Position numbers and translations under genes: made by a program. From Nanobdellati archaeon (GTDB lineage Archaea > Nanobdellota > Nanobdellia > UBA10117), in the NCBI GenBank assembly GCA_016204275.1, contig JACQKZ010000009.1, positions 1 to 37,654 of the forward strand: DNA of 37,654 nt. Direction: 5' to 3'. The notes below the pieces were generated by a model. That model was given only the letters and a program-made list of their open reading frames with translations. It made no database searches and was not told where the DNA came from. Each line of letters starts with the position of its first letter. The first letter of the stretch is position 1. This document shows positions 24,459-32,119 of the stretch, piece after piece.

Positions 24459-26072
24459 ATGCAAGCCTTGATACAAGAGTTGTTGGCGCTGCCGAAGCTG
24501 GATAAAAATTCGATAGAGCGGGTTAAAGTGAAGTGGGCGGAAAAAAACGGCGGGCAGATACCACTCGGCTCAGATATTTTGAAAGAACTGGCTGGCCTGC
24601 ATGATATACGGGCAGAAAAGCTGAGGCAGGCACTTGTTACAAAGCCAACACGAACGATGTCCGGCGTTTCCACGATTGCGGTGATGACCAAGCCGGCCGG
24701 CTGTGTGGGGCGCTGCACCTACTGCCCAACTTCAGCGATTGCGCCGAAAAGTTACACCGGTTATGAACCCAGCACGATGCGCGCGATAAGAAACAATTAC
24801 GATCCTTACAAAATAGTGCAAAACAGGCTGGCTCAGCTGCACAGCGTCGGCCACAACACTGACAAGAACGAAGTCATAGTGCAGGGCGGGACCTTCACGT
24901 GGATGCCATGGGATTACCAGTATAATTTTGTAAAAGATATTTTCGATGCATTCAACCAGTTTCAGCAGCCTTTTCTTTCGCAAAAGAAAAGGCTCCTGGG
25001 CATCCAAAAGAAAGGCGAGGGTTTCGCTTCGCTCAAGCCCTCAAAAACACTTGAAGAAGCACAGAAAATAAACGAAACCGCAAAGAACCGCGTTGTCAGC
25101 CTGATAATCGAGACGCGGCCGGACTGGTGCCATCAGAAAGAAATTCAGGAGCTGCTCTCGCTTGGCGCAACGCGTGTTGAGCTGGGCCTGCAGTCCATTT
25201 ACGATTTTGTCCTGGAAAAAATAAAGCGCGGCCATGATTTAGCAGAGGCAAAACGCGCGATCCGCGAGCTGAAAGATGCCGGCTTCAAAGTCGACTTGCA
25301 CATGATGCTTGGCCTGCCCGGCTCGTCTAAAGAGCTTGACAAAGAGATGTTCAGGATTATTTTTGAAGACGAGGACTTACGCCCTGATGGGCTGAAAATC
25401 TATCCGTGCGGCGTCATAAAAGGCTCAGAATTATATGAACAATGGAAGCGCGGCGAGTACGAGCCGATCAACGATGATTACATCGCAGAAGTTCTCGCAG
25501 AGATAAAAACAAAACATATTCCGCCTTACGTCCGCATCAAGCGAATTATGCGAGACATTCCATCAAACTATGTTGAGGCAGGCTACAAATCCACAAATCT
25601 GCGGCAGATGGTACAAGGGCATCTCAAATCCCGCGGAGTTAAATGCAGGTGTATCCGATGCAGAGAGGTCGGCCATCGCTACAACGAGTTCGAAGTCCTG
25701 CCAAGCGAAATTAAATTGCAAAGGTTAGAATACGCGGCAAGCGGCGGGAGAGAAATATTTTTGTCATTCGAAGACGTGGAACGGGACATTTTACTTGGAT
25801 TTTTAAGATTGCGGCTGTGCAAAAACGGAATCGCATTTGTCCGCGAACTGCATGTTTACGGAGAAGCAATTGCTATTGGTGAATCTGCAGATAGCAATCC
25901 ATTGGCGGCGCAACACAAAGGCCTGGGAAAAAAATTACTGGCTGAAGCAGAAAGCGTTGCAAAGAAAAATAATTGCGAAATATTAAAAGTTCTTTCAGGT
26001 GTTGGCGTAAAAGAATATTATAAAAAATTCAAATATGCTGATGATGGGTTTTACGTTTCGAAGGCGTTATGA
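24459..26072 (+). CDS. elp3: Elp3-family tRNA uridine-34 modification enzyme (radical SAM plus GNAT)
   Basis: CVGRCTYCPT radical-SAM Cys motif; KINETAKNRVVSLIIETRPDW; C-terminal GNAT domain HKGLGKKLLAEAE. Confidence 0.95.
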   Translation: MQALIQELLALPKLDKNSIERVKVKWAEKNGGQIPLGSDILKELAGLHDIRAEKLRQALVTKPTRTMSGVSTIAVMTKPAGCVGRCTYCPTSAIAPKSYTGYEPSTMRAIRNNYDPYKIVQNRLAQLHSVGHNTDKNEVIVQGGTFTWMPWDYQYNFVKDIFDAFNQFQQPFLSQKKRLLGIQKKGEGFASLKPSKTLEEAQKINETAKNRVVSLIIETRPDWCHQKEIQELLSLGATRVELGLQSIYDFVLEKIKRGHDLAEAKRAIRELKDAGFKVDLHMMLGLPGSSKELDKEMFRIIFEDEDLRPDGLKIYPCGVIKGSELYEQWKRGEYEPINDDYIAEVLAEIKTKHIPPYVRIKRIMRDIPSNYVEAGYKSTNLRQMVQGHLKSRGVKCRCIRCREVGHRYNEFEVLPSEIKLQRLEYAASGGREIFLSFEDVERDILLGFLRLRLCKNGIAFVRELHVYGEAIAIGESADSNPLAAQHKGLGKKLLAEAESVAKKNNCEILKVLSGVGVKEYYKKFKYADDGFYVSKAL

Positions 26073-27563: not shown

Positions 27564-28325
27564 TTGATATCGATAGTAATGCCAGCCTACAACGAAGAAG
27601 GCAGAATAGGTGGCATGCTCTCCGAATACTGTGAGTATTTTTCCAATAAAATAAAAGACTTTGAATTTGTTATAATTGTACAAGGCACAGACAAAACAAT
27701 TAACATAGTTAAAGATTTTGCAAAAAAATATCCGCAAATAAATTATACCTATTCCGAAAAGCGTTCCGGCAAAGGCGGCGCAATTATTGAAGGTTTTAAA
27801 CGCGCTAAAGGCAGCATTATTGGTTTTGTAGACGCAGATGGCAGCACGAGGCCAGACGCATTTTTTGATTTAATTAAACAAACAGATTTATATGATGGGG
27901 CTATTGCTTCAAAAAGAATGCCTGGCGCAATCATAACAAAAAACGAGCCAGCACTCCAGCAGTTTGGCGGTTATGGTTTTAACTGGCTGTTGCGATTTCT
28001 GTTTTTAATGCCATTTAAGGATACACAGTGTGGCGCGAAGATTTTTAGAAAAGATGTAATAAGTTCTATCCTGCCAGAGCTCGGTGTTACCGAATTCGCG
28101 TTTGATGCCGACTTGTTATTGAGAATTTGGAAAAAAGGGTTTAAGATAAAAGAAGTGCCGACTACCTGGGAATACAAGGCCGGCTCGACATTTGACTTCC
28201 GCAAATGGTTCTGGCGCCTGATTCCAAATATGCTTATGTCTTTGATGCGCTTGAGGCTGCTGTACTCGCCATTCAATGGATTTGTAAAATTCTGGGATAA
28301 GTATATTAAAAAAGTAAAAATATAG
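27564..28325 (+). CDS. Family 2 glycosyltransferase (dolichyl-phosphate sugar synthase-like)
   Basis: ISIVMPAYNEEGRIGGML, GKGGAIIEGFKRAKGSIIGFVDADGST; TTG start near 27564 inferred. Confidence 0.85.
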   Translation: MISIVMPAYNEEGRIGGMLSEYCEYFSNKIKDFEFVIIVQGTDKTINIVKDFAKKYPQINYTYSEKRSGKGGAIIEGFKRAKGSIIGFVDADGSTRPDAFFDLIKQTDLYDGAIASKRMPGAIITKNEPALQQFGGYGFNWLLRFLFLMPFKDTQCGAKIFRKDVISSILPELGVTEFAFDADLLLRIWKKGFKIKEVPTTWEYKAGSTFDFRKWFWRLIPNMLMSLMRLRLLYSPFNGFVKFWDKYIKKVKI

Positions 28326-28333
28326 CCCCGCTC

Positions 28334-28377
28334 CGGAACCGCGGAGGGCTCTGCCCTCCCCAGTTGGACGCTCATCC
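28334..28377. repeat. tRNA-linked hairpin element, copy A
   Basis: 37/44 identical to copy B (31881..31924); GGAGGG-CTCTG-CCCTCC stem. Confidence 0.75.
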
Positions 28378-28425
28378 TGACCCACCCGGATCGGATTGCT
28401 GCGCAATCCAATAAAATTAAAAATA

Positions 28426-28529
28426 TAGCCCCGCTCGGATTCGAAATCCTCTGATTTGTAATTGCTCACAAACCAACCGAGGTCCCAAGGTCCAAAGCCT
28501 TGTATCCTTGACCGCTGGACGACGGGGCT
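28426..28529 (-). tRNA. tRNA-Gln(TTG), interrupted in the T-arm
   Basis: Mature AGCCCCG TC GTCC AGCGGTCAA GGAT A CAAGG CTTTGGA CCTTG GGAC CTCGG TTCGAAT CCGAG CGGGGCT A (73 nt) after removing 31 nt. Confidence 0.93.
28446..28476 (-). other. tRNA-Gln intron at position 53/54 (31 nt)
   Basis: Complete BHB: inner helix TGGTTTGT/ACAAATCA, central helix CCTC/GAGG, bulges GG|T and AT|T. Confidence 0.88.
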
Positions 28530-31880: not shown

Positions 31881-31924
31881 CGGAACCGCAGGGGGCTCTG
31901 CCCCCTTCAGTTTGACGCTCTTCC
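31881..31924. repeat. tRNA-linked hairpin element, copy B
   Basis: 37/44 identical to copy A; AGGGGG-CTCTG-CCCCCT stem. Confidence 0.75.
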
Positions 31925-31991
31925 GGATTCCCCCGTGCGACATCGCGATGCGATGTCGCTTTCGACGTCAAATTCTCGTTTATGAGCATAA

Positions 31992-32119
31992 TGCGGAGGG
32001 AAGGATTTACATCGAACGGCGTTCGCTGAACAGCTGAACTTCGTTCATCTTTGAACCTTCGAACCCACTAAGGGACTACCCCCTCAAGGTAGCGTGTTTG
32101 ACCGCTTCACTACCTCCGC
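31992..32119 (-). tRNA. tRNA-Leu(GAG), interrupted in the T-loop
   Basis: Acceptor GCGGAGG/CCTCCGC, anticodon arm CTACC TTGAGGG GGTAG, T-arm GAAGG TTCAAAT CCTTC after removing 44 nt (84 nt mature). Confidence 0.93.
32006..32049 (-). other. tRNA-Leu intron near position 59/60 (44 nt)
   Basis: T-stem outer helix, central TTCA/TGTA (3 of 4 pairs), bulges AA|G and AA|T, inner TGAACG/CGTTCG; exact junction ambiguous by up to 3 A. Confidence 0.78.

Follow-up and report, generated by a model that had tools for sequence, protein, structure and literature searches.

Among the known archaeal tRNA intron positions listed in PMC4090602 is 53/54, and the relaxed BHB motifs HBh' and hBH have also been summarized (PMC4090602, PMC4033280). 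As far as the citing text reports it, proliferation and transposition of tRNA introns were described for the Thermoproteales (Fujishima 2010, as cited in PMC4090602). The alpha-4 and alpha-2 forms of the splicing endonuclease EndA cleave canonical BHB motifs only, according to a review (PMC4033280). Broad-specificity enzymes are found in intron-rich archaea, namely, the epsilon-2 EndA of ARMAN-2, in which the ARMAN-specific loop (ASL) is important, and the crenarchaeal (alpha-beta)2 EndA with its CSL (PMC12397907).

Here, a 31-nt insert at position 53/54 of a tRNA-Gln(UUG) gene is described. The gene lies in the window (the whole stretch of DNA analyzed, 37,654 nucleotides of contig JACQKZ010000009.1) of genome G000, which comes from a small groundwater-type archaeon and shares its genus with G001 and G002. 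The insert is very probably a genuine EndA-type archaeal tRNA intron at a noncanonical position with a relaxed BHB motif, a reading that draws on the sequence, the helix register, a chance test, a conserved and partly compensated homologue in one congener, and the presence of the enzyme genes. It shares with the known archaeal 53/54 introns (PMC4090602) the position, a 4-bp central helix, 3-nt bulges, and a predicted cut in the T-arm. It differs from them in its host, a small Woesearchaeota-like DPANN genome rather than one of the well-studied Crenarchaeota, and in an outer helix of 2 bp. As in HBh' and hBH motifs, one flanking helix is strong and the other is nearly absent, but here most of the exon side of the central helix is supplied by the 5' strand of the T-stem.

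The tRNA-Gln(UUG) gene and its intron

The tRNA-Gln(UUG) gene (Table 1) was the sole strong tRNA-Gln match in a search of the G000 genome, which is 68% complete. ARAGORN, which models introns in the anticodon loop only, reported zero tRNAs across the window with or without its intron option, tRNA-Gln included. Without the insert, the gene has a 7-bp acceptor stem, the anticodon loop CTTTGGA (UUG), a 5-bp T-stem (CTCGG/CCGAG), and a T-loop that is the perfect consensus TTCGAAT. Removal thus restores the canonical acceptor, anticodon arm, and T-arm, as expected for a BHB intron. Spliced alignment to the tRNA-Gln of an intact relative gave 68 identical positions of 75, with a single 31-nt gap.

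Table 1. Coordinates in the window of the tRNA-Gln(UUG) gene and the parts of its intron
Feature	Coordinates	Strand	Remark	Basis
tRNA-Gln(UUG) gene	28427..28529	-	72 nt exon (without discriminator and CCA) + 31-nt intron	Rfam RF00005, 42.7 bits (gathering score, 29)
5' exon, positions 1-53	28477..28529	-	53 nt, last bases CTCGG (49-53)	Sequence and spliced alignment
3' exon, positions 54-72	28427..28445	-	First bases TTCGAAT (54-60), end at 28427	Sequence
Intron at 53/54	28446..28476	-	31 nt	Sequence, shuffles, same-length homologue G002:C8:3292-3394
Central helix, exon strand CCTC (48-51)	28479..28482	-	49-51 common to T-stem	
Central helix, intron strand GAGG	28448..28451	-	GGGG in G002	
5' bulge GG/T	28476..28478	-	Predicted cut after 53	Helix register
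3' bulge AT/T	28445..28447	-	Predicted cut before 54	Helix register
Inner helix, 5' strand TGGTTTGT	28468..28475	-		Predicted to pair at 37 C (probability 0.94-1.0)
Inner helix, 3' strand ACAAATCA	28452..28459	-		Predicted pairing
Intron terminal loop GAGCAATT	28460..28467	-		Sequence

The intron, TTGGTTTGTGAGCAATTACAAATCAGAGGAT when read on the minus strand (28476..28446), is laid out as T, TGGTTTGT, (GAGCAATT), ACAAATCA, GAGG, AT. The sequence-only reading had placed it exactly, and the sequence and pairings given there were recovered unchanged: GAGG pairs with exon CCTC (48-51), the bulges are GG/T and AT/T, and the inner helix has 8 bp with one G-T pair. The 4-bp exon-intron central helix lies between the two 3-nt bulges, which is the arrangement of a BHB motif. 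When the insert was shuffled 200,000 times with dinucleotides preserved, the 4-bp central helix arose in 0.85% of the shuffles and the inner helix of 8 bp in 0.07%; the two together in the required register arose at a frequency of 1e-5.

The motif had also been called a complete minimal BHB. The inner helix, the two 3-nt bulges, and the 4-bp central helix agree with this description, but the outer helix does not. The sole pairs possible beyond the 3' bulge are A46-U55 and G45-C56, and adding these 2 bp costs 0.8 kcal/mol at 37 C, in place of the outer helix of several base pairs by the 3' bulge that a strict hBHBh' motif has. Because the outer helix is short and unfavorable, the predicted motif is classed as relaxed and HBh'-like, nearer to HBh' than to the complete hBHBh'.

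A second intron-bearing tRNA gene in the window, tRNA-Leu(GAG) (31992-32119, minus strand), has a 44-nt T-loop intron (32052..32009) and was detected neither by ARAGORN nor by Rfam at the gathering score. Copies of a repeat lie downstream of tRNA-Gln and tRNA-Leu (window positions 28320-28411 and 31881-31935), and the same repeat occurs at C5:18887 and within the T-loop intron of a tRNA-Lys gene (C26:42026). The copy after tRNA-Gln adjoins a duplicate of the 3' end of the gene (AAAAATATAGCCCCGCTC on the plus strand), looking like a remnant of intron exchange.

Conservation and turnover in relatives

Three genomes of the genus were compared. In G002, a 31-nt insert occupies the same 53/54 site and is identical at 22 of 31 positions (71%). 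Comparison of these two sequences, on which the covariation of the Gln intron rests, showed differences at 5 of the 12 helix pairs. One pair was doubly compensated (U-A in G000, C-G in G002). Three pairs changed on one side and were kept: one went from G.U to G-C and two from U-A to U.G, of which one lies in the central helix. The remaining pair, in the inner helix, is broken in G002 (A.A), and the probability of the G002 central helix in an unconstrained fold was about 0.05. The compensatory change that the sequence-only reading looked for in relatives was therefore mostly present in G002, the single informative relative, and the intron is conserved with its fold largely kept in this one genome.

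These data bear on whether the gene could be a pseudogene in decay that received an insertion by chance, CAA codons being read by another tRNA-Gln. Such a gene could sit in the missing part of the incomplete G000 genome, and the nearby DNA contains repeats as well as a second copy of part of the tRNA 3' end. However, both exons are intact and retain their base pairing, the search of G000 gave no further strong tRNA-Gln match, and the fold has a chance probability of about 1e-5. G002 moreover keeps an insert of the same length and largely the same fold despite divergence of both exons and insert. A pseudogene is thus very unlikely and was rejected.

In tRNA-Gln(UUG) of G001 and of G005 (same family), the 53/54 intron is absent and a D-loop intron is present (86 nt in G001 and 98 nt in G005), and in G003 and G004 tRNA-Gln(UUG) has no intron. 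This distribution of 53/54 introns, D-loop introns, and none indicates that, as read from the sequences, the intron content of tRNA-Gln(UUG) has turned over within one family. Similar 86-nt introns are located at the same D-loop site in tRNA-Gln of G001 (L011) and tRNA-Pro of G002 (L128). Their occurrence in two tRNAs of two species suggests transposition between tRNA genes.

Competition between the BHB fold and the T-arm

Bases 49-51 are common to the T-stem and the central helix, and the two helices are mutually exclusive. In the ensemble at 37 C, the probability was 0.94-1.0 for the inner helix, about 0.63 for the central helix, and about 0.03 for the T-stem. At this temperature, the BHB fold was favored by 0.9 kcal/mol when the tRNA body was held and by 1.5-3.0 kcal/mol when other pairs were free to form; for the G002 homologue, the advantage was 0 to 1.9 kcal/mol. 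The D-stem index was off by one in both compared folds equally, which leaves the energy comparison unchanged. The proposal that the T-arm cannot fold until splicing occurs is borne out as to the shared bases and the exclusive folds, but it is too strong as to the energies. Because the advantage of the BHB fold is only 0-3 kcal/mol, the T-arm is predicted to compete with it before splicing rather than to be unable to fold.

A rival reading keeps the insert in the mature RNA, where it would enlarge the T-loop and give an unusual tRNA; in its favor, the T-stem with the intron hairpin falls short of the BHB fold in stability by only 0-3 kcal/mol. This reading is less likely still and was rejected, since the T-loop after removal is a perfect consensus, the BHB register is exact, and other G000 tRNAs hold inserts of up to about 105 nt, which could hardly be retained in a functional tRNA. 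Removal without EndA, such as by self-splicing, for which the analysis turned up no supporting observation, was rejected as the least likely of all, because 31 nt is far below the size of a group I or II intron, the BHB register fits EndA, and Rfam gave no group I/II match and no recognizable catalytic core in the window or around the tRNA-Gln gene.

Introns in the tRNA genes of the genus

By spliced alignment to intact tRNAs, 25 tRNA genes were recovered each in G000 and G002, of which 22 and 24, respectively, bear introns. The intron calls numbered 43 in G000 and 41 in G002, at one to three per gene, and about two-thirds of them lie outside the anticodon arm (28 of 43 and 27 of 41). Among the calls, a few that are short or score low may be artifacts of alignment, and the census is partial and partly biased towards introns, some genes having been reached through the intron-element model. 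By our estimate, the ratio would still be near one intron per gene even if G000 had some 20 unseen intronless tRNAs. In G004, of the same family, tRNAs were far more readily recognized.

Pairing at the junctions was examined across G000 and G002, in which 81 of the called introns were at least 12 nt long. A central helix of 4 bp stood in BHB register at 31% of these junctions, compared with 3.5% of random junctions, and a central helix of at least 3 bp with a flanking helix of at least 3 bp was present in 44% of the introns, compared with 2.8% at random junctions. BHB-register pairing is thus enriched about 10-fold at the called junctions. Together with the register, the shuffles, the G002 homologue, and the EndA and RtcB genes, this strongly supports the earlier assignment of the Gln insert as a BHB intron with a cut at 53/54. 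The Gln intron is one of many in a lineage with pervasively disrupted tRNA genes.

A dispersed intron element

An element of about 95 nt was found by a simple pattern in 12 of the 43 G000 introns. Its parts are a hairpin (CCTTTCTTT/AAAGAAAGG), a closing stem, the conserved segment AAAGAAA, and a second hairpin that varies. At each of the three pairs of the closing stem, 8 to 13 of 23 sequences had both bases changed and remained paired. A model of the element (R1) gave 22-34 matches per genome in G000, G001, G002, and G005 at E<=0.01, and matches elsewhere were fewer or weaker. The element is located in tRNA introns of the anticodon, D, and T loops, and Rfam scans gave no family match for it. 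The 31-nt Gln intron lacks the CCTTTCTTT/AAAGAAAGG hairpin and the conserved segment that follows and is not a member of R1. No relation between it and the other introns was found, the best similarity being 23 against a 95% shuffled level of 22.

A copy of the element is also present at window positions 24962-25045 (plus strand), in frame within elp3 (open reading frame 24459-26072). This copy (24963-25037, plus strand) would, if translated, add about 25 residues that are absent from solved Elp3 structures. At this site, Elp3 of G002 and G005 has a different short Cys-containing stretch, and Elp3 of G003 and G004 has almost none.

Splicing enzymes

The G000 genome contains one EndA gene (G000:C29:51436; L063:520-1221), whose product is closest to the alpha subunits of N. 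equitans and M. jannaschii and is presumed to act as a homotetrameric alpha-4 enzyme. Its alignment to M. jannaschii EndA showed conservation of the Y, H, and K positions, which are catalytic in the M. jannaschii enzyme. One match to PF01974 (catalytic domain) and one to PF02778 (N domain) were found in each of G000, G002, G003, and G004 (genomes 68-87% complete), and no second EndA subunit was found in the three incomplete genomes of the genus that were searched. An RtcB gene is present in G000, G001, G002, and G005, with one in G000 (G000:C22:17804).

HMMER aligned one loop of the G000 EndA with ASL residues Y160-K161 of ARMAN-2 EndA. A loop extension of four added residues (FGQQQ or FGAQQ) is present in EndA of G000, G001, G002, and G005 and is missing in EndA of G004, G010, G011, G009, G017, G022, and G013; a further EndA-like sequence, incomplete and on a different contig of G005, is likewise without it. 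Among the EndAs aligned, the extension was found solely in the four intron-rich genomes. The coincidence represents one evolutionary event, so that the link between the loop and the introns is a correlation and not proof.

The extension of the G000 enzyme resembles the ARMAN-2 EndA in its location at the aligned loop. Unlike the ARMAN-2 and crenarchaeal enzymes, the G000 EndA is a single alpha-type subunit with four added residues (FGQQQ) and a lysine three residues downstream, and the role of the loop is putative.

Discussion

For a genuine EndA-type intron, we infer transcription, cleavage at the predicted bonds, and ligation in the following way. In the pre-tRNA, exon CCUC (48-51) would pair with GAGG near the 3' end of the intron, and the remainder of the intron would form the 8-bp hairpin, leaving the two 3-nt bulges GG/U and AU/U. 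The single alpha-type EndA would cut within each bulge, and RtcB would join the halves to give CUCGG-UUCGAAU-CCGAG. The T-arm would fold after ligation.

Taken alone, the Gln intron is one more case at an already known position. Its surroundings resemble the Thermoproteales in having several introns per gene and related introns in different tRNAs. They differ in that the host is a DPANN genus, with 43 (G000) and 41 (G002) intron calls among the 25 genes recovered per genome (the recovery being partly intron-biased), and in that the shared intron is a structured element of about 95 nt, which has a covarying stem and is found also in a protein gene. A search of the open-access literature found nothing relevant on tRNA introns in Woesearchaeota, which is weak evidence.

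We lean, with some hesitation, towards the view that this Woesearchaeota-like DPANN clade underwent an independent intron proliferation on the scale of that in the Thermoproteales. It would have been driven partly by the dispersed element and served by a single alpha-type EndA whose specificity a short insertion in the loop at the ASL/CSL position had broadened, without a beta or fused subunit, and the Gln 53/54 intron would be one of its products.

The system is worth following for its combination of pervasive intron gain in a DPANN genus, a single alpha-type EndA with a loop specific to the clade, and a structured intron that looks mobile. For the Thermoproteales, intron transposition has been put forward with no mechanism known for it, and the element is a candidate vehicle. 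Since intron-bearing tRNAs are missed by a standard gene finder such as ARAGORN, such genomes can look falsely tRNA-poor. The surroundings of the Gln intron make it testable whether the specificity of EndA limits where tRNA introns spread.
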